DNA of 24,436 nucleotides from the IMG/VR virus record IMGVR_UViG_3300038548_000055, positions 1 to 24,436 of that record; one strand, given 5' to 3'. Shown one piece after another: positions 2,588-24,436 of this stretch. Within the stretch, counting starts at the first letter, position 1. Every line of letters begins with the position of its first letter. Under the pieces are notes generated by a model that did no database searches, was not told where the DNA came from, and saw only the letters and a program-made list of their open reading frames with translations. This DNA comes from a virus. The translations under genes and the position numbers were made by a program.

Positions 2588-3232
2588 ATGGCTGTCTCCA
2601 TGACATTCGATTCGCTGCTGAGCGACATGCGTGCGTACCTGGAGCGTGGCACGTCCGTCGATGAGACGGTGTTCGAACAGCTGCCCAGCTTGATCAACCT
2701 GGCTGAGCGTACGCTGGCACAGTCGTTGAAGATCCTGGGCTTTATAAATGTCGTGACGGATACCATGACGATAGGTCAGTCGGTGATCCCAAAGCCTGAC
2801 CGCTGGCGGGCAACTGCCAGCATCAACTTCGGAGTGGGTACGACGCAGGTACGCACCCCTCTGTTTAATCGTTCGTACGAGTACATGAGGCGTTACTGGC
2901 CGGATGAAGATCTCACGGATCAACCAAAGTTCTACGGGGACTTCGATTACTTCAACTGGCTGATCGCACCGTCGGCAGATTTCGCATACCCGTTCGAGGT
3001 GAGCTATTGGCAGTTGCCTGCGCTGTTGGATGCTACCAACCAGACAAACTGGACCACCGACTTCGCTCCCAACGCTCTACTTCACGGTGCGCTCCTGCAG
3101 GCAACTCCGTTTTTGAAAAACGATGAGCGCATCCAGGTGTGGCAGGGGATCTATGACCGAGACGTCATCGTCCTTGAGCAACAGGACGTGAGGCGAATCA
3201 TCGACCGGCAAGTCACGAGGGAGAACGTCTGA
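2588..3232 (+). CDS. Head-tail adaptor protein, SU10-adaptor-like
   Basis: This 214-residue protein begins MTFDSLLSDMRAYLERG, followed by QLPSLINLAERTLAQSLKILG. That helical N-terminal pattern is the one I associate with the SU10-type adaptor proteins of podoviruses. Later segments (SYEYMRRYWPDEDLTDQPKF, YPFEVSYWQLP and the final helix NALLHGALLQATPFLKND) also fit. Such proteins form the ring below the portal to which nozzle and fibers attach. The next two genes are a fiber and a nozzle-like protein, as expected for a podovirus tail cluster. The stop overlaps the next start as TGATG. The assignment is from motif memory, not a search. Confidence 0.7.
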   Translation: MAVSMTFDSLLSDMRAYLERGTSVDETVFEQLPSLINLAERTLAQSLKILGFINVVTDTMTIGQSVIPKPDRWRATASINFGVGTTQVRTPLFNRSYEYMRRYWPDEDLTDQPKFYGDFDYFNWLIAPSADFAYPFEVSYWQLPALLDATNQTNWTTDFAPNALLHGALLQATPFLKNDERIQVWQGIYDRDVIVLEQQDVRRIIDRQVTRENV

Positions 3233-5361
3233 TGCCTTACACCGACGTCTTTGGTGGGGAGCTACTCTTCCCGTCGCAGACAAGTTACAACTCGATTACC
3301 ACGGCTGTAGACGTCACGCTGCAATGGCCGCGAGAGCAACAGATCGGTGGCGTCAACGTCGTTGCTGACTTCATGGATCTTGATGCGTCGGTCCCGTCGC
3401 TCAACATCGACATGCCCTCATCGTCGTTCACGTCTACCGGCAACAAGACGACGTTCAACAACCTGGGCGCGAACACGTTCACTGTGCGTGACAGCACAGG
3501 TGGCACGATTCAATCCGTGCAGCCTGGTGAGCAGTGGGTGCTGGTGCTGACGGACAACACTACAGCGGCAGGACTGTGGTCTACCTTCCAGCTGGGAGGC
3601 AATGCAGCTACGCAGGCATCTGCTTCGGCACTGGCTGGTGATGGTCTCAGACCGATAGGGCAACAGCTCGATCAGATCATCGACTCCGACGTCGAAGCCT
3701 CGACACCGTTTACGGTGGTGGATGGCGACCGAGCGAAGTGCCTGATCTACACCGCTGGCGCAGGGACGTGCAACCTGCCGTCACCCGGTGCTGTTGCTAA
3801 CAACTGGTTCTTCATGCTGCGCAACTCAGGCAATGGCACGCTCAACGTCGTGCCTCCGTCGGGGCTGATAGATGGTGGTGCCAGCATCAACATGGACACC
3901 AACGATGCGGTGTTCATCTTCACCGATGGCACCAACTTCTTCACCATCGGCTTTGGTCAGGGCAACACGTTAGCCTTCGACTTCGTAGAGATCCCGGTCC
4001 CTGGCTCAGGCGACTTCAACCTCTCCGGTGTGAACCTCGACCGGATCTCGTACCGGTTCACGGGTGTACTCACGGGCAACCGACGCATCGTCGTGCCGGA
4101 TACCATCCAGCAGTACTGGGTGGACAACGAGACGACGGGTGCCTTCGATCTGGAGATCAGCACCTCAGCGCAAGTTGGTCCACCGACGGTGGCGCAGGGC
4201 AACACGGTCATCTTCTACGCTGATGCCACCGACGTCATCAACGCAGTTAACACCTCCGCAGTGTCGTTCCCGGTCCTGGTAACCCAGGGGGGCACAGGTG
4301 CGACGACAGCCGCTGCTGCTCGTAGCAACCTGGGCGCTGCGTTCGACGGTCAGGACATGATCGCAGGCGTAGGTATGACCGGGGGAGGAACTCTCGCAGC
4401 AGACCGCACATTCGATGTGACCCCCATCGGACTGGATGAGCTGACGGATGTCACGCTTACCGCACCGGCAACAGGTGGATTGCTGTACAAATCTGCAGGC
4501 GACTGGTTAGACACGAACGCGATTACTGTGGATCCCGCAGCTGCGGTGAACATCCGTCACAACGGAACGGTAGTATTCGACACCACCGCTAACGGTGCGT
4601 TGTTCACTGGGAGTGGCTCACTGTCATTGATCACGCTCTTCAACTCAGCGAACGTTGCAGGGTTTTACTCGATGTACAACACCACCAACGGTGGCGTCGC
4701 ACTGAAGAACCAGAACCCTGACGCTCGCCTGGTGCAGATCAGTGCGGGTGGCGGAGAGGAAGACGTCTGGCTCGACATGGAGCGCAATGGTCTGGTTGGT
4801 CAACGTCACAACGGCACTCAGATGACCCGCACGGTTGTCATCGGCAGCGGTGGCTTGGAGGTCAACAACACTGTTACCGGTGGTGGCTTTGAGCGTGCGT
4901 TGACCACCAGCGATCTAGGCCAGACGCCCATCCTCAAGACAGTTACCCAAGTCCTTCAGAGTGACATCGTCCTGCAAGATGATGATGACTTTTTCTTTGC
5001 TGTGGATGACCAGAGCTGGTGGTCCGTCCTCCTGGTCTTGGTTCTTGAAGGTCAGTCGGGTGCCCCAGATTTCAAGTTTGGCTGGAGCCTCCCGTCCTTT
5101 GGCGAGATCTTCTACACCGGCTGGTCGAATGTCTTCAGCAACACTATCGATCAGCACCTTGGATCGGTTGGGAACTCCCCGGTCATCGATCTATCTGGGG
5201 CTGGACCGACGATGCTCGTCCTCCAGGCAACTATAGAGATTGCTTCGGGGTTTGCAGGGACCGTCCAGTTTCAGTGGGCGCAGAACACTTCCGTCGCAGT
5301 GGAATCCCGCGTGCTCAAAGGTAGCTATATGTACTTCCAGAGGCTGGGGGACGCTGTTTAA
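3232..5361 (+). CDS. Tail fiber protein with shared modules
   Basis: This 709-residue protein starts MPYTDVFGGELLFPSQTSY, an N-terminal domain that probably docks to the adaptor or nozzle, with sheet-rich sequence to about residue 120. The middle has beta repeats with aromatic and Asn/Gly turns. At about residues 353-371 it has the widespread fiber signature GGTGATTAAAARSNLGAA. After that come LTDVTLTAPATGGLLYKSAG and GGLEVNNTVTGGGFERAL, pieces of the unit that is tandemly repeated in the first fiber gene. The last 170 residues form a distinct domain (DDDDFFFAVDDQSWWSVLL onwards), possibly the tip. It overlaps both neighbours by one base. The fiber call is strong; receptor specificity is unknown. 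Confidence 0.85.
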   Translation: MPYTDVFGGELLFPSQTSYNSITTAVDVTLQWPREQQIGGVNVVADFMDLDASVPSLNIDMPSSSFTSTGNKTTFNNLGANTFTVRDSTGGTIQSVQPGEQWVLVLTDNTTAAGLWSTFQLGGNAATQASASALAGDGLRPIGQQLDQIIDSDVEASTPFTVVDGDRAKCLIYTAGAGTCNLPSPGAVANNWFFMLRNSGNGTLNVVPPSGLIDGGASINMDTNDAVFIFTDGTNFFTIGFGQGNTLAFDFVEIPVPGSGDFNLSGVNLDRISYRFTGVLTGNRRIVVPDTIQQYWVDNETTGAFDLEISTSAQVGPPTVAQGNTVIFYADATDVINAVNTSAVSFPVLVTQGGTGATTAAAARSNLGAAFDGQDMIAGVGMTGGGTLAADRTFDVTPIGLDELTDVTLTAPATGGLLYKSAGDWLDTNAITVDPAAAVNIRHNGTVVFDTTANGALFTGSGSLSLITLFNSANVAGFYSMYNTTNGGVALKNQNPDARLVQISAGGGEEDVWLDMERNGLVGQRHNGTQMTRTVVIGSGGLEVNNTVTGGGFERALTTSDLGQTPILKTVTQVLQSDIVLQDDDDFFFAVDDQSWWSVLLVLVLEGQSGAPDFKFGWSLPSFGEIFYTGWSNVFSNTIDQHLGSVGNSPVIDLSGAGPTMLVLQATIEIASGFAGTVQFQWAQNTSVAVESRVLKGSYMYFQRLGDAV
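4432..4515 (+). repeat. Fiber module fragment shared with first fiber gene
   Basis: Residues LTDVTLTAPATGGLLYKSAG and the following DWLDT match the first fiber's LSDVTLTAPATGAVLYKSAG and NWLDT (about 200-265), with clear DNA similarity. A second matching piece (GGLEVNNTVTGGGFERAL) lies at about 4831-4920 of the same gene. Between the two, the second fiber has sequence that the first lacks. Confidence 0.75.
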
Positions 5362-7165: not shown

Positions 7166-8992
7166 ATGCCAGCACAAGGCGGATTGGCTGCGATGATCGC
7201 TCAGTCAGGTGGGACGAAGGACCTGGTCAAGACGGCCCAGCAGATCGAGAGCGCACCGGGCGGTTCAGAGTTGCTCTACACCCTTGCCGCCGAAGAGATG
7301 ATGAAGGGCATGGGCGCGACGAAAAAGCAGACCAAGAAGATCCGTCTGTACGACGCAGGCGGACCTGTCAAGGCAGCTCGTGGTGGATCCACGAAGGCAG
7401 CAGCTGAGCGCACGCGCCAAGCAGGACGTGGCGACGACTCGATCATGCTGCACATGAGCCCTGAGGAAGCTGAGGTGATCTCCTCGATGTGGGGCGAGCC
7501 TCAGATGAATCCGAACACCGGTATCGGTGAGTACGGGTTCCTGAGCAAGGCGTTTAAGAAGCTCAAGAAGGGCGTGAAGAAGATCGTCAAGTCGAAGGTG
7601 TTCCAGATGGTCGCACCCATCGCACTGGCAGTGTTCGCGCCAGCAGTCATCCCCTGGATAGGTGGCGTACTGGCACCTGGCGCAGGTGCTGCCACTGCAT
7701 CGATGATCGGCAACGCAGTCGTCCAAGGAGGGCTGGGTGCGGTAGCCGGTGGCAAGAAGGGCGCGATCCGTGGAGCCATCTCCGGTGCAATTGCAGGCGC
7801 AGGAGCAGGGAAGGGTGCAGGCGCGACGTTGGGAAGGAAGCTAGGGATGGATGGGAGGCTCGCAGACACCGTAGGAAGCGCTTTGCTGGAGGGAGCGGGT
7901 GCTGAGCTTACCGGTGGCAAATTCTCCTCAGGAGCCGTCAGGGGAGCTGTGGGAGCACAGACGCGGCCTATGACGGAAGCTCTGAGCAGCAACATCCGTC
8001 GGGGACTGGGGTACGACTACACAGGCGAACCGATTGCCATGGCTGATGCCGCACAGGTCAACCCGATGACGGGTGAGCCGATGGGCATGGGTTCGGAAGC
8101 GATTATGGATCTGGGCGTGAAGGGTGTCGCACCAGGGTCCACGTACACACCTAAGACTCCGCTGAGTGCCCCACCGGGCAGGGCACAACCGGGCCAGTTC
8201 AACTTGGCTACTCCGGGTGCTCCTCCAGCACCTGGCGGACAGGGTGGGCAGGGTGCCCCTGGCAAAACGGACCTTCTCGCCAAATATGGACTCAAGTACG
8301 GACTACCTCTGCTCCTGGGAGCGGGTGCGGTGAGTGGTGGGAAGTATGAGGAGCCTGATCCTCCGCAGTTGCCTCCGACGTTCAACGAGCCCATGCCGCA
8401 ATACCAGATGAACCGTCGTTTCGATCCTCTGGATCCAGCCTCGTACTACTCGTACGGACGGGTAGGCTCACCGACATCAGGGCAGCACCTGTTCATGACC
8501 CCGGAGCCGTTCCCGTTTGAGCAGCAGCAGCAAGGCATGCCTCCACCGGGGGGACTTGGACAGGCTGCAGGTGGCTACCAGCGTGGTGGCGAGTTCGACT
8601 ACTGGAGTCAGAACGAGGACGTGTCGAATGCCACCCCGACGGTGAGCGCTCGCGGTAGCTATGTACGAGGTGGTGGCAGCGGTCGGTCGGATGACATCGA
8701 AGCACGCCTGTCTGATGGCGAGTATGTGATCGACGCTGAGTCGGTAGCGCTGCTGGGCGACGGTTCCGGTGATCACGGTGCGAAGCGACTCGATGAGATG
8801 CGACGTAACCTGCGCAAGCACAAGGGGCAGAACTTGAAGGAAGGTAAGTTCAGCCACAAGGCGAAGAAGCCTGCGAACTACATGAGCAAGATGGGCAGGC
8901 TCCGTCGCTCAGCTAAGTATGAACACGGTGGCGTGATGAACGTGGCGGGCACCAGCCCACCGCACATGGGCGCAACGGGAGTGAATGTCTGA
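7166..8992 (+). CDS. Internal virion (ejection-type) protein with hydrophobic core
   Basis: This 608-residue protein opens with MPAQGGLAAMIAQSGG. A strongly basic helix follows at about residues 128-144 (AFKKLKKGVKKIVKSK), then a Gly/Ala-rich hydrophobic region at about 148-230 with two or more potential membrane segments and glycine-zipper spacing. The middle is Pro/Gly-rich and probably disordered. The end has SGRSDDIEARLSDGEYVIDA and AKRLDEMRRNLRKHKGQNLK, a pattern seen in many podovirus virion proteins. Basic plus membrane-active segments fit a protein ejected with DNA that helps cross the envelope. I see no lysozyme or transglycosylase motif. The role is inferred from architecture and from the next three genes. 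Confidence 0.65.
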   Translation: MPAQGGLAAMIAQSGGTKDLVKTAQQIESAPGGSELLYTLAAEEMMKGMGATKKQTKKIRLYDAGGPVKAARGGSTKAAAERTRQAGRGDDSIMLHMSPEEAEVISSMWGEPQMNPNTGIGEYGFLSKAFKKLKKGVKKIVKSKVFQMVAPIALAVFAPAVIPWIGGVLAPGAGAATASMIGNAVVQGGLGAVAGGKKGAIRGAISGAIAGAGAGKGAGATLGRKLGMDGRLADTVGSALLEGAGAELTGGKFSSGAVRGAVGAQTRPMTEALSSNIRRGLGYDYTGEPIAMADAAQVNPMTGEPMGMGSEAIMDLGVKGVAPGSTYTPKTPLSAPPGRAQPGQFNLATPGAPPAPGGQGGQGAPGKTDLLAKYGLKYGLPLLLGAGAVSGGKYEEPDPPQLPPTFNEPMPQYQMNRRFDPLDPASYYSYGRVGSPTSGQHLFMTPEPFPFEQQQQGMPPPGGLGQAAGGYQRGGEFDYWSQNEDVSNATPTVSARGSYVRGGGSGRSDDIEARLSDGEYVIDAESVALLGDGSGDHGAKRLDEMRRNLRKHKGQNLKEGKFSHKAKKPANYMSKMGRLRRSAKYEHGGVMNVAGTSPPHMGATGVNV

Positions 8993-10110
8993 TGGGATCC
9001 CCTACTGATTTCCTCTTCGAGGGTCAGCCTCCGAAGTCGGTCACGACCTACGGACAGACCATCAAGGATGTCCCGAAGTGGATGTCTGACTACACGCAGG
9101 GGCTGATCGCTCGCGCCAACGCAGCGGCAGCTGAACCGTACATTGCCTACGAGGGACCACGCATTGCCGGGTTCTCACCGGCACAGCAAGCTGCCTTCGG
9201 GCTCACCGAGCAGAACGTCGGCTCGTACCAGCCCTTCGTTGAGGGAGCCACCCAGGCAGCTATGGGTGTCGCAGGTGGACCGTCACCGCTAGAGGAGGCG
9301 CAACCCTACCTGGGTGCGGGCACGGGGTCGTTCGCTGCACCGGGTGCCGCTGAGCAGTACATGAACCCGTACATCCAGAACGTGCTCAACCGCAACGAGA
9401 GCCTCGCCGGTCGTACGCTCGAAGAGCAGTTCCTCCCCAGTCTGCAGCGTACCTTCGCGGGAGCGGGTTCCTATGGTTCCAGAGGCGGCGAAGGATCCAT
9501 GGAACAGATCGGCATGCGAGGTGTTAGGGACATCACCGAAGGGCTCAATGAACAGAACCTTGCTGCACTGTCTGGTGCGTATGGGCAGGCAGCTGACATC
9601 TTCGGCCAGGAAGGTACGCGAAACATCCAGGCAGGGCAGATCGCAGGGTCAGCGGCTACAGCTGGTGGGCAACTTGGACTGGGAGCAGCACGGGAGCTAG
9701 GCGCACTGGGCGAGTTCTCACAGCAGGCAGGCATGATGGATGCAGCGTCACTTGAAGCCATGGGTCAGACGCAGCAGGGGATGGATCAGGCGAGTCTCGA
9801 TCTGGCGTACAGAGACTTCGCCGAACAGCGTGATCTACCGATGGCACGGACTGGCTTCATGTCCGAGATCATCCGTGGTCTGCCACCGTCAGCAGTACCG
9901 TCGGCGCAGACGACTACAGAGGTGGGACCGGCATCGATCTACCAGCCGTCACCGCTATCGCAGGTCGCAGGTGGGTACGGTGTGTACAAAGCGCTTCAAC
10001 CTGAACTCCAGGCTCGTGGTGGTTACATCAGATACGCTAAGGGGGGACTGGCACGAATGATCGACTTGGACCCCAGTGATTACCGGGTGGTCAGCATGGG
10101 AAAGAACTAA
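8992..10110 (+). CDS. Internal virion-type protein, zero-frame (short) form
   Basis: This 372-residue protein is Ala/Gly/Gln-rich and mostly helical. Near the N-terminus it has YIAYEGPRIAGFSPAQQAAF, a motif recurrent in podovirus internal proteins. A long helical middle (LGLGAARELGALGEFSQQAG) follows, and the C-terminus is ARGGYIRYAKGGLARMIDLD. Its start overlaps the previous stop as TGATG. Its stop at 10108-10110 lies four nucleotides after an in-phase G GGA AAG heptamer and directly before a stem-loop, so a fraction of ribosomes probably continue in the -1 frame to make a 438-residue form. No enzymatic motif is seen; a structural or ejection role is inferred from context. Confidence 0.75.
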   Translation: MGSPTDFLFEGQPPKSVTTYGQTIKDVPKWMSDYTQGLIARANAAAAEPYIAYEGPRIAGFSPAQQAAFGLTEQNVGSYQPFVEGATQAAMGVAGGPSPLEEAQPYLGAGTGSFAAPGAAEQYMNPYIQNVLNRNESLAGRTLEEQFLPSLQRTFAGAGSYGSRGGEGSMEQIGMRGVRDITEGLNEQNLAALSGAYGQAADIFGQEGTRNIQAGQIAGSAATAGGQLGLGAARELGALGEFSQQAGMMDAASLEAMGQTQQGMDQASLDLAYRDFAEQRDLPMARTGFMSEIIRGLPPSAVPSAQTTTEVGPASIYQPSPLSQVAGGYGVYKALQPELQARGGYIRYAKGGLARMIDLDPSDYRVVSMGKN

Positions 10111-10169: not shown

Positions 10170-10307
10170 GTGAAGGGCTGGTGGAATTCACTCACCGGAG
10201 GTGGGCGGCGACAAGGTGGGCTGCGTGCAGCATCGGAGATTCTCTACCCCGAGTGCAGCCTGACGACGAACGCTGAGGGAGCGATACAACTGGAGGATAA
10301 TGACTGA
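10104..10307 (+). CDS. -1 frame C-terminal extension of internal protein
   Basis: After a -1 slip at AAG (10102-10104), translation continues through 67 codons (ELSAEPFALGGLAQAAKSGW to AIQLEDND) to a TGA at 10305-10307. The last base pairs of that stop form TGATG with the next gene's ATG at 10307. This is the same coupling seen at most joints in the operon, and it argues that this frame is really translated. The frame is closed upstream by a TGA at 10077 and contains no ATG. The only GTG (10170) and TTG (10137) lack a properly spaced Shine-Dalgarno. The full product would be 371 + 67 = 438 residues. The tail contains a basic, Trp-rich helix (QRVKGWWNSL) and a second GGLA motif. A sequencing indel is the main alternative. 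Confidence 0.75.
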   Translation, partial: ELSAEPFALGGLAQAAKSGWQRVKGWWNSLTGGGRRQGGLRAASEILYPECSLTTNAEGAIQLEDND

Positions 10308-11623
10308 TGGCTAGACGTTACGAGAAAGGCGGACTTGCCCTGGCTGTCGGAGGCACGTTCGATGACGATGAAGATCCTTCTATTGTTCCTGAGATTCTTG
10401 AGGATGTAGGTGCACTCGGAGAGGTAGCAAGTAAACCGGCTCATCTGCCGACTCAGTCTTCCCGGATAGGTCGTCAGATGACCAACACTGATGCCATGGA
10501 GCGGTTGAAGGAGGCACGCGGGAGACTGCAGTCTCGGCTTGAGTCAACCGAGAAGGACAGGACAGGTGAGTGGTTGGCTTTTGCACAAGGCATGCTTGCA
10601 CCAACGAAAACAGGTGGTTTTGGTGAATCGCTAGGTGCTGCGGCAGGCGCGGTAGGTGAGGCCCGCTCAGAACGAATAAAATCGCTGACCGATATCGAAG
10701 AGGAGTTACTCTCCCAGGAAGTGAAGACGCAACAGGTCGAGGCGCAATCACGTGCCCGCCTGGGCTCAAGGTCAACGGTGTACCACCCGGATGATGTCGA
10801 GAAGTATCCAAAAGATAAATCAAAGTGGCGACATATCGAGAAACAAACCATCGTGCACGCCGACGGTGAGACGGAACACATTTTTACAGGGACGACTGAC
10901 GGAAAAGTCCTGCAGGTGGTGTCGAGTCAGAGCCCCATCACAGTATCAGAGAAAGAGATGGCGAAGGTTGCAGCGGGAGATGCTGCGAAGCTGCGATCTA
11001 ATGAGATTGAGCAAGGGCTGAACTCAACGCTGGCAGTAAATAAATTGCAGACGGCTCGTGACCTCTTCGCAGAGCTAAGTACCAGTGGAATTAAAGGGAA
11101 GTACATAGATTTTGCTCAGTTCATGAATATCAAACTCGATGACAATTCCAGCTTCCAGCTGGCACGAAGACTCATGGGCGACGAAGTTCTGAGCCAGTTG
11201 ACTAGGCTGACGGGTACCAAAACCGACTTCGAGTACAGGAAGATCGAGGAACTCAACGCTAGCACTGCGAAGGGTAAGGAAGCCAACCTCAAAATCATCG
11301 ATGACATGCTTGGTCGGTATGAAAAAAGTATTCAGTTCGGGGAAGCAGCAGCGCTGGAGAGAGCAGAGGATCCAGATACCGATCTATCAGTTAGTCGGTT
11401 TAGAAATTTTCGCAACGAGCAGTCTGCGAGAGCAGAGATGAAGCAGGTGCAAGGGCGAGCTAAACAAGAGCCGAACGAAAAAGCTGAGGCCAAGCTGATT
11501 AAAATGTTCGACATTAACGATCCCCGGAATGAAGCGATGCTTGACTCGTACGCGAAGAGGTTCCCCTGGCCCCCGTCACCAGACACGCTCTCTGCGTTGC
11601 GTGCTAAAGGAGCGACGTTCTAA
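10307..11623 (+). CDS. Internal virion-type protein with YHPDDV module
   Basis: This 438-residue protein begins MARRYEKGGLALAVGG. Most of it is charged helix (about residues 65-150 and 215-400), suggesting coiled-coil or helical-bundle assembly. At about residues 157-218 lies a discrete module, TVYHPDDVEKYP to LQVVSSQSPITV, that recurs in the gene at 14378-15922. A Shine-Dalgarno (GGAGG at 10292-10296) precedes the ATG. The gene begins on the stop of the frameshift tail and ends in a TAATG overlap. No catalytic motif is seen. Its place among the internal proteins and its helical content suggest an ejection protein; function is inferred. Confidence 0.65.
   Translation: MARRYEKGGLALAVGGTFDDDEDPSIVPEILEDVGALGEVASKPAHLPTQSSRIGRQMTNTDAMERLKEARGRLQSRLESTEKDRTGEWLAFAQGMLAPTKTGGFGESLGAAAGAVGEARSERIKSLTDIEEELLSQEVKTQQVEAQSRARLGSRSTVYHPDDVEKYPKDKSKWRHIEKQTIVHADGETEHIFTGTTDGKVLQVVSSQSPITVSEKEMAKVAAGDAAKLRSNEIEQGLNSTLAVNKLQTARDLFAELSTSGIKGKYIDFAQFMNIKLDDNSSFQLARRLMGDEVLSQLTRLTGTKTDFEYRKIEELNASTAKGKEANLKIIDDMLGRYEKSIQFGEAAALERAEDPDTDLSVSRFRNFRNEQSARAEMKQVQGRAKQEPNEKAEAKLIKMFDINDPRNEAMLDSYAKRFPWPPSPDTLSALRAKGATF
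10775..10957 (+). repeat. YHPDDV module, copy 1
   Basis: This segment encodes about 61 residues running from TVYHPDDV through KWRHIEKQTIVHADG to VVSSQSPITV. The same order of motifs appears at 14555-14740 in another gene about 3.8 kb downstream. Both share short identical DNA runs such as GAGAAACAAACC, indicating duplication within this genome or its recent ancestors. Confidence 0.8.
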
Positions 11624-13812
11624 TGACCCCGTCAGAACTCCTTGGACTGCAGCTGGAACAGATGGAGGAAGACCGATTACTCATGGAGGCTGGGTATGCA
11701 CCCGGTGAGGTTCCACCGGAGGGGGCGAAGGATCCGCTAATGCAGGCTGAGCTAGAGGCTGAGACAATCCCTGAGGCAGAGGCTCAGTTCCAAACCACCA
11801 CGACGTATTACGATCCCTTTGCAGAATATGATGAGGTTGATGAGGGCACTGCAGATTACGATCCTTTTGCAGAGTACGATGTTCCGGAACGACATGGTGG
11901 TTTGGCAAACCCTCTTGTGAATGAATTCCCCAGTGATTTCCCTATGGAACCGGGCACCTCGCGTGCGTCACAAGAACTGGGCGAGATGTTTGTACCTCCT
12001 CAGATTGGCGGCGTGGCTCCGCAGATTCAGAAGGGGCGCACTGCCCCAGCTACGGGTGGTGGTGTAGGTGAGACTCTGCCGATGAGTCAGCAACTAATGA
12101 TATCAGCAGCAGCGCTGACGATGACTGACCCGGAAGAGATCGCAGAGATGCTGCGCCAGTATCCAGATGACATCGCTGTCCAATACGCACCGGATGGTGC
12201 GATCCTCGCAACCAACATCAAGACGGGTGCCCGTGGGCTCGTTAATCGTCCTGGTACGAGCGTGATGGATGTCCTCCAATCGTTGGGCATCGTTGCCACT
12301 TACGCGCCAGGAGGAAGCTGGGCATCACTGGGTGTGAAGACTGCGCTGCCTAAGGTGGCGAGCGCAACGATGCGTCACCAGATGGAGAAACAAGGAATTG
12401 CAAAAGCAGGAACACGGATGGCTGCGGCCTCAGGGGTCACTGAGACGGGAGTACAAACAGGTCAGCACCTGGCTGGTGGGACGTTCGATCCCGAAGACAT
12501 CGCGTTCGCTACCGGTGCCGGTAAAGCAGGTGAGCACCTCGCTAAGCCCATTGCCCGCGTAGCTACCAAAGGCAAAGAATTGTTTGGCAAAACTGGAGCT
12601 GTCGTACCTAAAAACGTCATGCAAGCATTGGAGTATGCAAAGCAAACAGGTCGGAAGATCTTCACCTCCGATGCTATGTCGGATTTCATGACTCCTGTCC
12701 AGACAATTGCTATGAAGGTGATTGAACGTATCCCCATCACGGGTATCGGTAAGCTGCGACGCAAGCAGAAGGCAGCGAGAACAGACGCACTCGTAGATCT
12801 AGTAAACAAGTACGACATCAACATCGAGGAGGAGCTGGGTCACGACATCGTGCAGAGCTTCTACGACCGGCTGATCAAGCAGCGCTTCTGGGGTAAGAAC
12901 AAGGATCTCATCACACGGTCGGAATGGCCCAAGGCGGGCATCAACCCAGAGACCCGAATCTGGGACCCCGTTACAAAGACCTTCGGAGAACCGGCTACGG
13001 AGGCACGACGGGCAGCGCAGCAAAAGGCGCAGGATCTACTTGAAAGTGCGTTCGAGAAGGAATCCAAAGAAATCATTGACGGTGCACTGGCTAGGCAGCT
13101 GAAGGAGGGCAACCTCGATGATGAGATTGTCGAGCGTGTTCTGGACATGGGTATACCTAAACGTGTGCGGGATCTGTACGACAAACTGCTGCCCGACGGT
13201 AAGAAGGCAGTGAAGAAACGCTTCCTCTCCAAAGGATTGGAGAAAGCGGGCTGGACTCCTGACGCTCCGCAGATCTCTAACCCGGATGAGTTCGTAAAAT
13301 ATCTCAGTGACCCGAAGAACAAGAAGATGCTGAACATTTTCTTTGATCAGGGTGAGAAAGATCTGATCGAAGGAACTCGTGAGTATCTACGGATGACCTC
13401 TGCAGCTGCCAAGACTTCTGCAGGCGCAGGCATGGTTGCTGCGGTAGGGGGAGCTTCCGCTGTCGGTCTCACGATGTTCGCCGGTCTGGGTTGGGCAGGG
13501 ATAACGGCAGGCGCAGGGCGAGTCATTCAGGGCAGAGTGGTGCGCAACCTCCTCCTGAAGCTGGCGTATGCCAAAGGCAACCCGGAAAAAGCGCAGACGA
13601 TCATGCAGGCGCTGCGACCTGCCGTCATGGCACTGGAGAGCCAGTACTTCGAAGAAGGTGGTCCACCGGAGCTGCCTCCCATTGAGGAGTTCGATGAGCA
13701 GATGATGAAAGACCTGGGTGACTACGGCATGGAATACCTGCGCAGCCTGGGCGATGTGGGCATGAAGAAGATCGAAGGCGTGACCGGAACCCTGAGCGAG
13801 ATGTTGAACTGA
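11623..13812 (+). CDS. Large internal virion (ejection-type) protein
   Basis: This 729-residue protein has an acidic, low-complexity N-terminus (about residues 1-130) with two copies of YDPFAEYD spaced 16 residues apart, then RHGGLANPL. A long helical, charged middle (about 300-590) includes IPITGIGKLRRKQKAARTDA. A Gly/Ala-rich hydrophobic stretch at about 600-640 (AGAGMVAAVGGASAVGLTMF onwards) could enter membranes. The C-terminal helices are acidic. This layout resembles the long ejection proteins of podoviruses, which leave the capsid with DNA and build a conduit through the envelope. No peptidoglycan hydrolase motif is visible. It overlaps the previous gene as TAATG and the next by one base. 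The role is inferred. Confidence 0.65.
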   Translation: MTPSELLGLQLEQMEEDRLLMEAGYAPGEVPPEGAKDPLMQAELEAETIPEAEAQFQTTTTYYDPFAEYDEVDEGTADYDPFAEYDVPERHGGLANPLVNEFPSDFPMEPGTSRASQELGEMFVPPQIGGVAPQIQKGRTAPATGGGVGETLPMSQQLMISAAALTMTDPEEIAEMLRQYPDDIAVQYAPDGAILATNIKTGARGLVNRPGTSVMDVLQSLGIVATYAPGGSWASLGVKTALPKVASATMRHQMEKQGIAKAGTRMAAASGVTETGVQTGQHLAGGTFDPEDIAFATGAGKAGEHLAKPIARVATKGKELFGKTGAVVPKNVMQALEYAKQTGRKIFTSDAMSDFMTPVQTIAMKVIERIPITGIGKLRRKQKAARTDALVDLVNKYDINIEEELGHDIVQSFYDRLIKQRFWGKNKDLITRSEWPKAGINPETRIWDPVTKTFGEPATEARRAAQQKAQDLLESAFEKESKEIIDGALARQLKEGNLDDEIVERVLDMGIPKRVRDLYDKLLPDGKKAVKKRFLSKGLEKAGWTPDAPQISNPDEFVKYLSDPKNKKMLNIFFDQGEKDLIEGTREYLRMTSAAAKTSAGAGMVAAVGGASAVGLTMFAGLGWAGITAGAGRVIQGRVVRNLLLKLAYAKGNPEKAQTIMQALRPAVMALESQYFEEGGPPELPPIEEFDEQMMKDLGDYGMEYLRSLGDVGMKKIEGVTGTLSEMLN
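11809..11880 (+). repeat. Tandem YDPFAEYD repeat
   Basis: YDPFAEYD is encoded at 11809-11832 and again at 11857-11880, a period of 48 nt (16 residues). The copies differ only at codon third positions, so the peptide is conserved while the DNA has drifted. This suggests a selected short linear motif in the disordered N-terminal region. Confidence 0.8.
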
Positions 13813-14378
13813 TGGCAGCGAAGCGCATCAGTAGGAAAGCAAGGAACCGAGCCGGTACCTTGATGGCTGAGCGCTCGCGTCTCTTCCTGCCTGACCATCT
13901 CGAACAGGTACGAGCGATTGCCATGCGTGGCATTAGCGAAGAGACAATGTCCCAGGTCTTCGACATCGCGAAGAGCCAGATCAACCTGTGGAAGAAGCAG
14001 TACCCGCTGTTCAAGGATGCCATCGAGGACGGCTACACTGACGCTGACTCAGCTGTGCTCAGTGCACTGTACCAACGTGCCGTCGGCTACCAGCACGACG
14101 AAGAAAAGATCATGCAGTGGGACGGTGAGATCATCCGTGCTGACACGGTGAAGCACTACCCACCTGACGTACCTGCCATCAAGCTGTGGCTTACTAACAG
14201 GCAGCGCGAACACTGGAAGGATCGTCATCACTCATCGCACTCAGGTGGTGACGGTGACAACTCACCCATCGGTCTGCGCGACGAGACCAAGCAAGAAGTC
14301 ATGAGCAGCATCCTCGCGCTGATCCAACCGAAGCCCGACAACGTCACCATCGACGGTAAGACAGGGGAGGTGGAGTAA
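13812..14378 (+). CDS. Terminase small subunit-like DNA-binding protein
   Basis: This 188-residue protein has a helix-turn-helix at about residues 40-70 (ISEETMSQVFDIAKSQINLW). It is followed by the characteristic small-terminase sequence ALYQRAVGYQHDEEKIMQWDGE, and then HYPPDVPAIKLWLTNRQREHW. The latter resembles the conserved block seen in many phage TerS proteins (YPPD-x4-I-x-WL-x-NR-x3-W). TerS recognises the packaging site and hands DNA to the large subunit. Here it follows the ejection genes; the large subunit is not in the window. Starts and stops overlap neighbours by one base. The C-terminal 40 residues are polar. Confidence in the family is good; the partner is unseen. Confidence 0.75.
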   Translation: MAAKRISRKARNRAGTLMAERSRLFLPDHLEQVRAIAMRGISEETMSQVFDIAKSQINLWKKQYPLFKDAIEDGYTDADSAVLSALYQRAVGYQHDEEKIMQWDGEIIRADTVKHYPPDVPAIKLWLTNRQREHWKDRHHSSHSGGDGDNSPIGLRDETKQEVMSSILALIQPKPDNVTIDGKTGEVE

Positions 14379-15922
14379 TGGCTGAGTACACGGCACAGCC
14401 ACCGGAGACGGCTGCGGAGAGGAGGGGTACGAAGGAGAATTGGGCGAGGCTCAAACGGGAGAAGATGCAGGAGTCCCTGAGCAAGCTGCGGCTGCGGGGC
14501 TCGATGAGTCAGGCCGACTCCAACGCAGCACGTCGTCAGGTGGGTGATATGCAGACTGTCTATCACCCAGATGACGTCGCTGCGTATCCAGAGAACCGTG
14601 AGAAGTGGAGGCACATTGAGAAACAAACCGTCGTGCACAGCGATGGCTCAGTGGGACACGCTTTCACGTCCAGTGGGGAGGACGGAGAACCCCTGCAAGT
14701 AGTAAGTCGCTCGAACCCGATTACAGCCCGCGAAGCGGAGGCAGCAGAAGAAGAAGATAAGATCTTCAAGCTGCTGTGGGACCAAAAAATTAACAGCATG
14801 CTGGCTGGTAACACAGCTGGCGGACGCGTTGAGACGTATGTGGATGGCTCCAAGGAGTGGGTTCCCAACCTCCCTGACGGCACTCCGCAGGCAACCACAG
14901 GTGAGGTGTTCTACGATCCTAACGACCCCGCAAAGGGGGGCAAGGCAGTAGGCGCAGCGAAAGGCGGATACCAAAAGGAAAGATCAATGCCATCAAAATC
15001 TCCAGAGCAGTCTGCGCTGATGCGTGCAGTCGCACACGGGTGGAAACCCAGCCGGATGAAGGGACCGTCACGCAGGGTGGCGAAGGAGTTCATGCGTGCT
15101 GACCAGAAGGTTAAGAAGTTTCAGTACGGTGGGATGGCTGGTTCGCCGGAGGATATGACCTTCATGGACAACTACGCTGACGCCGCAGCTTGGCAACCTC
15201 CGCAAGTTACCCAGCCGCAGGCACCGGTTTACCCAACCCCTGGGCCGAGTGGTGTGTCTGAGCTTGAGGATCCCTACCAGGAGACTCCCGGTGCCCCGAT
15301 CTTCCCGGGTAATCCAGGGAGCGGGGGACCTATGCCCCCGGTGACCGCGCCAACTGAGGACACCATCCTTGGTGGTCCGCCAACTGTCCTGGATCAGGGC
15401 ACGACACCTCCAGTTGTGGCACCACCAGTGACGCCGCAACCTCCGATGGGTGGAGGCGCAGGAGGTTCACGTAGCTATGCAGTGCCGTCGCGGTACAGCG
15501 AACAGGCAGCTGCACACCAGGCTAGGATCCGAGCCATGATCGGTGGCGGTGCAGCACGAGGCGGGCCTGTAAGGATGCAGGGGGGCGGTAGGATCCCCCA
15601 ACGACCTGGGGGTCTTGGTCAGGTCGCACAGCGACCACGGGCACCTGGTGTCGGTACGCGGCCACCTATGCCACCGGGTGGTCAACCCCCTGGGCCTGGC
15701 GGACCTGGCGGCGTAGGAATGCGGGGAGGTGCGCCACCATCGATGCGTGGACATCTGCAGGCGATGCGTGCTCAGCAGCGTCAGGCTCAGGGTGGGGGTG
15801 GGAACCGTATCGGGATGGGTGATCAACAGGGTGGGCTCGCGAGAGCAATGCAGACTCAGACGGGGAGACCCCCCATCTCTCGTCGCGCAGCGTTCCCCGG
15901 ATCGAGGCAGAACCAGTACTAA
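14378..15922 (+). CDS. Gly/Pro-rich virion-type protein with YHPDDV module
   Basis: This 514-residue protein has a basic helical start (ENWARLKREKMQESLSKLRL), then at about residues 60-121 the module TVYHPDDVAAYP to LQVVSRSNPITA shared with the gene at 10307-11623. After about residue 280 it is extremely rich in Pro, Gly, Gln and Arg, with runs such as RPPMPPGGQPPGPGGPGG, and should be disordered. It ends with GGLARAMQ and a basic tail. The start is in a TAATG overlap with the TerS-like gene, with a good GGGGAGG. The shared module and its place as the last rightward gene suggest a virion protein rather than a packaging enzyme. No family is assigned. Confidence 0.7.
   Translation: MAEYTAQPPETAAERRGTKENWARLKREKMQESLSKLRLRGSMSQADSNAARRQVGDMQTVYHPDDVAAYPENREKWRHIEKQTVVHSDGSVGHAFTSSGEDGEPLQVVSRSNPITAREAEAAEEEDKIFKLLWDQKINSMLAGNTAGGRVETYVDGSKEWVPNLPDGTPQATTGEVFYDPNDPAKGGKAVGAAKGGYQKERSMPSKSPEQSALMRAVAHGWKPSRMKGPSRRVAKEFMRADQKVKKFQYGGMAGSPEDMTFMDNYADAAAWQPPQVTQPQAPVYPTPGPSGVSELEDPYQETPGAPIFPGNPGSGGPMPPVTAPTEDTILGGPPTVLDQGTTPPVVAPPVTPQPPMGGGAGGSRSYAVPSRYSEQAAAHQARIRAMIGGGAARGGPVRMQGGGRIPQRPGGLGQVAQRPRAPGVGTRPPMPPGGQPPGPGGPGGVGMRGGAPPSMRGHLQAMRAQQRQAQGGGGNRIGMGDQQGGLARAMQTQTGRPPISRRAAFPGSRQNQY
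14555..14740 (+). repeat. YHPDDV module, copy 2
   Basis: This segment encodes TVYHPDDVAAYP, KWRHIEKQTVVHSDG and LQVVSRSNPITA in the same order and nearly the same spacing as 10775-10957. The sequences around the module differ completely between the two genes, which marks it as a domain that has been copied or moved on its own. Confidence 0.8.
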
Positions 15923-22724: not shown

Positions 22725-24436
22725 ATTTGGTCCCCTTACCCCACGGACCCAGCTCTGCCTCGCCTTCCATCGGCACGCTGAGTTTGATTTTGAATGTGTT
22801 CATCAGCGCTGGTCGCGCTGCGATCTTCAGCAGCACCGGCACGCAGTCATCGATGTGCTCGTCCTTCACGATCATCAGCACGGCATCGTGGTGCTCACCT
22901 ACGATCCTCAGCTGGGAGCGGTCGAAGGTCTTGTGCACCTCGATCAGGATCATCACCTTGAAGTCACCGATCATGGACTGGACCCCGGAGTTGACCGCTT
23001 GCCTCTCAGCCTCAGCGCGAACTCCGCGATCCTTGGCATGGATGCCAGGGAGGCGACGCAAGCGTCCCGTCAGGCAGCGCACAGAGCCGCTGAGGCGGGC
23101 TAGCTTCTTCACCTTGCGATGCCAAGCCTCCAGCATGGAATACAGCGAGAAGTAGGCATTGCGGTTCTGCTTGGCCTCAGTAGCGGTCGGCTCCCAGCCG
23201 TAGTCCTTCTTCGCCATCTCGATGTATTTGGGCTCGCGCATGCCGTAGATGTAGCCAAAGTTGGTTGCCTTCGCTCGCGTGCGTCCCTCGTACCAGCGCT
23301 TGTTGACCTTGATGCACGCACCTGAGCCTGCCATCCGCAGCACTTCGAGTGCGTCGGAGTAGCTGGGCGTACCGTTGAGGATGGCGACCTTCTCCGCTGT
23401 CTTGCGTACGAGCCCAGCGAACTCACCCTGGGTGCCGATGCTCAGCGTCTCGATCATGGTGCGCCAGTGGATGTCCTCGCCACGCTGGAAGACACCGAGC
23501 ATCTCCGGGTCCTTCGACAGGTGGGCGGCGATCCGCATCTCTGCGGTGGCGACATCGAGCGCGACGAAGGTCCAGCCCTCAGGTGCCGTGACCAGGTTCC
23601 TGATCGTGCCGTCGCGTGGAATGGGGTGGAGTGGTGAGGAGTAGCGTCCAGTGACAGTGCCGTGCAGTTTGTAGTCGAAGTGATACCGGTCACCGATGCG
23701 GTACTGCTCCCAGCCCTTGATGTAGGTGCTGAAAAATTTGTCTGCGGTTCGGTACTCCAGCAATTTGTCCACCACCGGATGTTTTCCCACCAGGTGTAGG
23801 AGCGCGGCCTCAGATGTGCTCTTTTTCTTTTTCGGCGTCAGAATTTTGCAGGGTAGCCCGAGATCCTCATATAGGGCTTTTGCGATCTGGTCGGGCGAGT
23901 TCCAATTCACCTCGTAGCCCATGAGATCGAGTAGCTCTTCGCGCAGCGTAATCTTCCTCGACAGCAGGTCGAGCCCGATCTCCTTGCGGGCCGCAGCGTC
24001 GATGGTCAGCCCCTCCATCTCGACGTCTTCCATGGCGCGGGCACCTGGCATGACCAACTTCCAGAACAGCCGGTGCAGACTGGGCTCCTGGCGTAGCATG
24101 CCCTCGAACAGATGGCCCAGGCGCAGGGTGTAGGTCGCATCCTGAGCGCAGTATTTGTAGTTGCGCATGGGCTTCTTGGACTTGCCGTTCTTCTCCTCGA
24201 TGGGGATGTCGTATTCGGGCTCATCGAGGTAGGCACGGCACAGGCTGGTCAGGTCATGGTGGACATTCTCGTCCAGCAGGTGATGCGCAAGCATGGTGTC
24301 GAAGCTGAGCCGGAAGGAGCCACCGAACATGCAGCGCATCCACTTGTTATCGAACTTGCCTCCCTGTGCATAACTTCTCTTGCCATCTCGGCGTGCGATG
24401 GAAAACAGTAGTTGCATCAGATACTTGAGAGCGTTA
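22714..24436 (-). CDS. DNA polymerase I-like family A polymerase, 5' end cut
   Basis: The frame runs off the right edge (six more codons, NALKYL, before the Met at 24417), so at least 573 residues are visible. Numbering from that Met, exonuclease motifs are GGKFD23 (Exo II) and Y89-x3-D93 (Exo III); Exo I is off the window. Polymerase motifs are TVTGRYSS (255-261), motif A D288 in VALDVATAEMR, motif B R379-K383-F387-Y391 in RTRAKATNFGYIYG, ERQAVNSGVQ (471-480), and motif C EHHDAVLM with H510-D511. Motif C has Ala where Pol I has Glu (HDE). Phe at the O-helix site should disfavour dideoxynucleotides. It replicates the phage genome with proofreading. It heads the replication and recombination operon. 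Confidence 0.9.
   Translation of the reverse strand, partial: NALKYLMQLLFSIARRDGKRSYAQGGKFDNKWMRCMFGGSFRLSFDTMLAHHLLDENVHHDLTSLCRAYLDEPEYDIPIEEKNGKSKKPMRNYKYCAQDATYTLRLGHLFEGMLRQEPSLHRLFWKLVMPGARAMEDVEMEGLTIDAAARKEIGLDLLSRKITLREELLDLMGYEVNWNSPDQIAKALYEDLGLPCKILTPKKKKSTSEAALLHLVGKHPVVDKLLEYRTADKFFSTYIKGWEQYRIGDRYHFDYKLHGTVTGRYSSPLHPIPRDGTIRNLVTAPEGWTFVALDVATAEMRIAAHLSKDPEMLGVFQRGEDIHWRTMIETLSIGTQGEFAGLVRKTAEKVAILNGTPSYSDALEVLRMAGSGACIKVNKRWYEGRTRAKATNFGYIYGMREPKYIEMAKKDYGWEPTATEAKQNRNAYFSLYSMLEAWHRKVKKLARLSGSVRCLTGRLRRLPGIHAKDRGVRAEAERQAVNSGVQSMIGDFKVMILIEVHKTFDRSQLRIVGEHHDAVLMIVKDEHIDDCVPVLLKIAARPALMNTFKIKLSVPMEGEAELGPWGKGTKYAA

Follow-up and report, generated by a model that had tools for sequence, protein, structure and literature searches.

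A domain shared by two putative virion genes of one phage and its possible arrival in a two-module cassette

The closest described systems are the ejection proteins of phages T7 and P22, for which the gene orders gp15/gp16 and gp20/gp16, respectively, have been reported (PMC8954989). Domain swapping among such proteins is described as well, since the hydrolase activity of T7 gp16 sits on the gp15-like proteins of K1E and K1-5 (PMC8954989). More generally, phage protein mosaicism denotes fragments shared by otherwise unrelated phage proteins (PMC10684548). Here we describe a module of about 61 residues that occurs in two genes, encoding proteins of 438 and 514 amino acids (aa), in IMG/VR virus record IMGVR_UViG_3300038548_000055. 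The whole 24,436-nucleotide (nt) stretch of this record that was analyzed is called the window below. The second copy lies in a segment fused in frame to the core of the 514-aa protein, and the moving unit is probably a two-module cassette exchanged between phages. The two genes and the two module copies are located as follows.

10307-11623, + strand: 438-aa gene, an open reading frame (ORF) for a putative ejection protein, in a gp15/gp20-like position
10775-10957, + strand: module copy 1, residues 157-217 of the 438-aa ORF (61 residues)
14378-15922, + strand: 514-aa gene, directly 3' of the small terminase gene
14555-14740, + strand: module copy 2, residues 60-121 of the 514-aa ORF (62 residues)

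As with K1E and K1-5 (PMC8954989), related phages appear to share a domain, or to have transferred it, among distinct virion genes. The present case differs from that swapping in that the unit is small and without a known enzyme signature, that a single genome carries it in two genes, and that the second of these, 3' of the small terminase gene, is not part of the ejection cluster. The module also has the hallmark of mosaicism, i.e., a shared homologous fragment with non-homologous flanks, but no family library that we searched contains it. The main text of PMC10684548 has no occurrence of the terms ejection, internal virion, same genome, paralog or intragenomic.

The translations confirmed the module in both genes, as an initial annotation of the window had proposed. 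Copy 1 is marked by TVYHPDDV...WRHIEKQT...VHADG...LQVVS...PIT, and the copies share 61% protein identity (E about 2e-23, tblastn against a four-sequence database). Their Smith-Waterman score of 205, versus a shuffle mean of 24.4, was reached by none of 500 shuffles. When the 24 window ORFs taken as genes were compared all against all with composition correction, the module pair and a tail-fibre-like pair were the only shared segments at E<0.01. The initial annotation also considered the flanks unrelated and raised the opposite possibility, that one larger homologous domain covers both genes with the module as its best conserved part. We consider the latter very improbable. BLAST without composition correction does extend the alignment to 120 columns, and the structure models of both copies put long helices on either side. 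On the other hand, the composition-corrected match is limited to 67 columns (residues 148-213 of the 438-aa protein versus 51-117 of the 514-aa protein), and the flanks alone, compared between copy 2 and copy 1 plus its three orthologs, scored like shuffles, both for 58 aa upstream (p 0.16-0.94) and for 60 aa downstream (p 0.08-0.93).

The module is thus discrete, and it is also unnamed. No Pfam, NCBIfam or PHROG family was above cut-off, the best Pfam match being Sema, with copy 1 only (E 0.026, 14.9 bits vs a cut-off of 23.7). Searches of cultured phages gave one match at E 5 with copy 1, none at E≤1 with copy 2, and zero at E≤0.01 with the whole 438-aa and 514-aa proteins. General-term literature searches found no paper on the module. 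Designed beta-propeller chains (Cake8) matched the module profile with E values down to 1e-9 for the whole chain, with no single stretch passing; this match, at module positions 12-45 (10808-10909), probably reflects a shared beta-hairpin pattern and not homology. A bacterial match in L009, an Acidobacteria metagenome-assembled genome, was rejected as a chance WRHIEKQ lying antisense to an ORF judged by eye to be Hsp70/DnaK-like.

Scans of 2.9 million viral contigs with the module, a module profile and the 438-aa alignment all returned the same three contigs, L001-L003; such scans begin from short exact peptide patterns, which diverged copies may escape. The three contigs are syntenic with the window and contain the module once per record, at the same place inside a 438-aa ortholog that is 54-63% identical to the window protein. 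Copy 2 is absent from all three. An iterated module profile, run over 10650 ORFs of 90 sources (a set without L004-L009 and L014-L019, which are the window itself, duplicate contigs and the spurious L009), brought up no additional strong member; L069 came next, at E 0.5.

To place the module within its protein family, we collected further relatives of the 438-aa protein. A conserved-motif scan gave 321 viral loci, the best 80 of which were kept; the 66 distinct proteins were reduced to 44 by removing those >80% identical and to 43 by requiring >200 residues past the motif. The alignment holds the window protein and 20 relatives, picked by eye for an alignable middle part, i.e., 20 of the 43 (window included) plus L001, with 23 left out. 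In these 21 members, a fast-diverging segment lies between a helical part (WLALAQGMLxPTxTGGFGE) and a helical C-terminal part, and many other family members have a quite different sequence at the place of the module. AlphaFold2 predicted the same order for both copies: a long helix, a strand and a short helix, then more strands, two in copy 1 and three in copy 2, and a long helix. In both models, which bear on independent folding, long helices thus flank a small beta unit, at low-to-moderate confidence. The 438-aa model (predicted template modelling score, pTM, 0.34) gave four matches at E≤0.001 in the BFVD viral fold library, all uncharacterised or unnamed.

These comparisons suggest that the module represents one form of the predicted middle beta-domain, which evolves fast, in a putative ejection-protein family. 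In shuffle tests of copy 2 against L012 and of both copies against L069, none of 3000 shuffles reached the score, and copy 1 against L012 gave p 0.004. Profile comparison with hhalign gave modest links to the L012 group (E 2.3e-4, probability 44) and the L035 group (E 1e-4, probability 57), for subgroups that were cut by eye, which favours likeness among them. Because some subgroups have no sequence link, the case for homology throughout the family depends in part on position.

The 514-aa protein consists of an N-terminal extension (residues 1-203) and a core common to relatives (residues 204-514). The features at this junction are listed here.

13812-14378, + strand: small terminase gene (phrog_309 terminase small subunit, E 9.8e-38)
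14819-14920, + strand: second module GGRVETYVDGSKEWVPNLPDGTPQATTGEVFYDP, residues 148-181 of the 514-aa protein
14975-14989, + strand: AAGGA, 7-nt spacing, then ATG (M204), a possible retained ancestral core start
14987-15124, + strand: PSKSP...AVAHGW motif opening the 514-aa core (phrog_16759, E 2.7e-8, residues 204-249)

Within the extension, copy 2 is followed by 26 residues and then by the second module (GGRVETY...EWVPN...VFYDP), which is partly beta-hairpin in the AlphaFold2 model. The 514-aa orthologs of L001-L003 have the same core (PSKSP..AVAHGW, and a C-terminus with DQQGGL and GRPP) and a different N-terminal part. The core gene can also open directly at MPS[KT]..AHGW, right after the terminase gene, as found in seven relatives (L011, L013, L023, L038, L039, L041 and L042), some of which may be one virus; the DNA upstream of the core start was compared for most of them. 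M204 matches the gene start in these relatives and is the apparent ancestral start of the core. A match of this strength (at least 5 bases) precedes 8 of the 141 internal in-frame ATGs of the 14 plus-strand genes, M204 included, and a short form of the protein might possibly be made from M204. Because the N-terminal extensions there differ among relatives, the spot after the small terminase gene is a swapping site.

Several other genes at this spot were recorded. A different extension of about 200 aa (GLGGFLKKV or GIGSFLKKV) lies ahead of the core motif in L001 (11547-13676), L002, L003, L012 and L031; it is an ORF of its own in L054 and is fused to another ORF in L030. An ORF after the small terminase gene in L010 (9561-10169) and L029 (13929-14825) contains HEFGH, which looks like a metallopeptidase motif. 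The gene after the small terminase gene in L035 (13186-15720) and L040 (13559-14887) holds HGTPYTF..GEGAAAYGHG, presumably akin to polyvalent-protein or ADP-ribosyltransferase-like segments.

Four other viruses (L010, L041, L023/L024 and L107) were found to have the second module, which was not found in L001-L003. In these four relatives it lies within an N-terminal extension of the gene at the 438 position, with the L107 gene, which ends at the contig end, placed by synteny; in the window it is in the 514-aa gene. The first profile was built from the four sequences that it then matched, and a leave-one-out profile served as control. Over the 10650 ORFs, the latter recovered the window (1.8e-14), L010 (8e-24), L041 (1e-24) and L023 (8e-20), and L107 was found independently (E 6e-23). 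L023 and L024 are the same virus (99.995% identity over 19293 bases, two assemblies, with the same protein in both). In L023, the second module is preceded by a further copy, shortened, of the beta-domain of that phage, as supported by shuffling (0 of 3000) and by a hidden Markov model (E 0.042 against 10650 ORFs). With the window and L023 arrangements, beta-domain doubling beside the second module is therefore seen in two phages. The N-terminal segments of L041 and L107, which by eye could be decayed beta-domains, were not counted since the tests were weak: the best p values among seven comparisons each were 0.02 and 0.009, and L107 against the N-terminal copy of L023 gave p 0.004.

The parallel arrangement in L023, present in both assemblies, also bears on whether the window contig is an assembly chimera. 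The window is a single viral record for which no second assembly was found, yet the copies differ at 39% of bases and no break in the reading frame occurs between the terminase overlap and the conserved C-terminus; we give a chimera almost no credence.

The age of the copies was examined at the DNA level. They agree at 112 of 183 positions (61%), with 48% identity at third codon positions. Estimates by the Nei-Gojobori method (NG86), which are rough since they rest on 61 codons, gave 0.36 nonsynonymous substitutions per site (dN) and about 4.4 synonymous substitutions per site (dS), the latter being saturated and beyond the reliable range. The dS of copy 1 was 0.73 versus L001 and 1.36 versus L003, and that of copy 2 was 1.84 versus L001 and not computable versus L003. 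From the low dN as compared to saturated dS it follows that copy 2 was under protein-level constraint for most of its history, and the copies seem to date back to the split from L001-L003 or further. The short identical DNA runs mentioned in the initial annotation do exist (longest 12 nt), but mean little with dS saturated: because the copies are old and constrained, these runs are a residue of protein conservation and not a trace of recent copying. The proposal that the domain is mobile within the genome was not supported. Saturated synonymous sites argue against a recent jump, copy 2 is absent from the three syntenic relatives, and the companion module was found elsewhere only in other phages of the group. 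An old or imported cassette fits better than a jump inside the genome.

We infer, with confidence evenly balanced for and against, that copy 2 is within an imported two-module cassette that was fused before the 514-aa core, most likely by recombination with a phage of the same group. The 203-residue cassette would comprise the beta-domain, a spacer and the GGRVE..EWVPN..VFYDP module, and would have been joined in frame ahead of the apparent ancestral start of the post-terminase gene. The main rival is an old duplication within the lineage, by which the post-terminase gene gained a duplicate of part of the 438-aa gene, and L001-L003 branched off earlier or lost the copy. We rate this as possible, though rather unlikely. 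It agrees with the unrooted protein tree of the five modules, in which the two window copies are apart from the three relatives (66% bootstrap), and with the domain doubling beside the second module within the single genome of L023. It is disfavoured by the dS between the copies, which exceeds that of copy 1 versus L001 and L003 (on only 61 codons), by the unrooted DNA tree, which groups copy 2 with L001/L002 (67%), and by the second module beside copy 2, which was not found in L001-L003 and is present in other phages.

A recombination scar was also considered, i.e., a functionless in-frame fusion produced by gene swapping at the terminase boundary, with the core still starting at M204. The differing N-terminal extensions among relatives and the Shine-Dalgarno-like AAGGA 7 nt before M204 are in line with it. 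Constraint for most of the history is instead indicated by the dN of 0.36 with dS saturated and by the WRHIEKQT core, which copy 2 retains, although this constraint may date from a donor gene, prior to fusion. On balance, a mere scar seems improbable.

Several observations weigh against import of a cassette carrying a family beta-domain. No virus was found with copy 2 in the putative donor position. The DNA and protein trees conflict. By the 519-aa gene, the second-module phages, where measured, are farther from the window (identity of 70% for L010 and 69% for L107) than L001-L003 (74-77%), but by the 372-aa gene they are not (about 60% each). Similarity could not be detected between the module and the L010 group (p 0.14 and 0.40) or between copy 2 and the own beta-domain of L023 (p 0.15), and hhalign gave the module no link to the L010 or L011 groups. 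The AlphaFold2 models have mean predicted local distance difference test (pLDDT) scores of 64 and 58 and pTM values of 0.34 and 0.24, and the input alignment of the copy-2 model contained copy 1 with its flanks. Against the PDB, the copy-2 model gave 281 fold matches at E≤10 and 0 at E≤0.001, the best being 0.99, and no convincing solved-structure or fold match was found.

The putative function of the 438-aa protein was assigned from its neighbours, of which two are relevant here.

8992-10110, + strand: 372-aa gene, upstream of the 438-aa gene and related to GB2A gp064
11623-13812, + strand: 729-aa gene, DNA-transfer-protein-like (phrog_770 DNA transfer protein, E 8.3e-12)

The 438-aa gene lies directly 5' of the DNA-transfer-like gene, in a gp15/gp20-like position. 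Because this is the same order as in gp15/gp16 and P22 gp20/gp16, we infer that it encodes a putative DNA-ejection protein. As with the T7 and P22 proteins, a mid-sized gene directly precedes a larger DNA-transfer/transglycosylase gene and the protein is predicted to be mostly helical; its 438 aa are close to the 471 aa of P22 gp20 (PMC8954989). Unlike those proteins, it is without a sequence match, and its putative role derives from the surrounding genes. Homology to the known gp15/gp20 family was not found (0 PHROGs at E≤0.1), the L003 ortholog matched phrog_7775, a PHROG of unknown function (E 0.0056), none of the 21 family members matched Pfam at E≤0.05, and there was no NCBIfam match and no solved chain at E≤1.

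Using the 519-aa gene, we found the cultured Caulobacter phage GB2A (44% identity) and the complete metagenomic genome ctpbd312 (41%), both of which have an SLT transglycosylase domain in the gene after the 438 position. The 438-position gene of ctpbd312 gave a weak match to the window protein (E 5e-4, in a set of eight proteins). The GB2A gene gave none, and its presumed equivalence is based on position and on the match of the preceding gene: the 372-aa protein and GB2A gp064 are 36.6% identical across 322 columns (E 9.6e-55, in a set of eight proteins). The 514-aa protein has one weak match to a virion-protein PHROG (E 0.013), and both module genes are presumably virion genes.

Other repeated or shared segments were found in the window. 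The 729-aa gene contains a short in-frame repeat (11807-11881; YDPFAEYD twice, 48 bases apart). The tail-fibre-like 549-aa (19-1668) and 709-aa (3232-5361) genes have in common LSDVTLTAPATGxxLYKSAGxWLDT (52% identity in 63 columns) as well as VxGxGFERxLTTxD. Near the C-terminus of the 608-aa protein, residues 486-531 (8621-8758) form a piece, ARLSDGEYVIDAESVALLGDG, which matches several tape-measure PHROGs and has a 64% identical counterpart in GB2A gp065; we read it as another travelling piece. Several putative virion proteins of the window have a short [YF]xxGG motif (YEKGGLA, YAKGGLA, FQYGGMA), at 7343, 8912, 10030, 10313 and 15113 and, on the minus strand, at 24378; it also occurs in relatives. 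The loose pattern also matches the polymerase gene, the 729-aa gene and one fibre gene and may be partly due to chance.

As for its role, the beta-domain may be a docking unit that would bring both proteins into the same virion assembly, such as the portal or ejection complex. A common virion partner for the two putative docking modules, as suggested in the initial annotation, is plausible. A more far-reaching proposal, which we regard as doubtful, is that in phages of this group the cassette would act as an exchangeable N-terminal address tag, directing any virion protein that carries it to the ejection complex; in the window phage, a tagged long form of the 514-aa protein and an untagged short form from M204 would both be made. 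Otherwise, the locus represents ordinary phage mosaicism, and domain swapping and mosaicism are already described in print (PMC8954989, PMC10684548). With its unnamed domain, a companion module that can be traced and a start codon that was apparently retained, it is a clean case and therefore gives a concrete handle on what targets proteins into the phage ejection complex.

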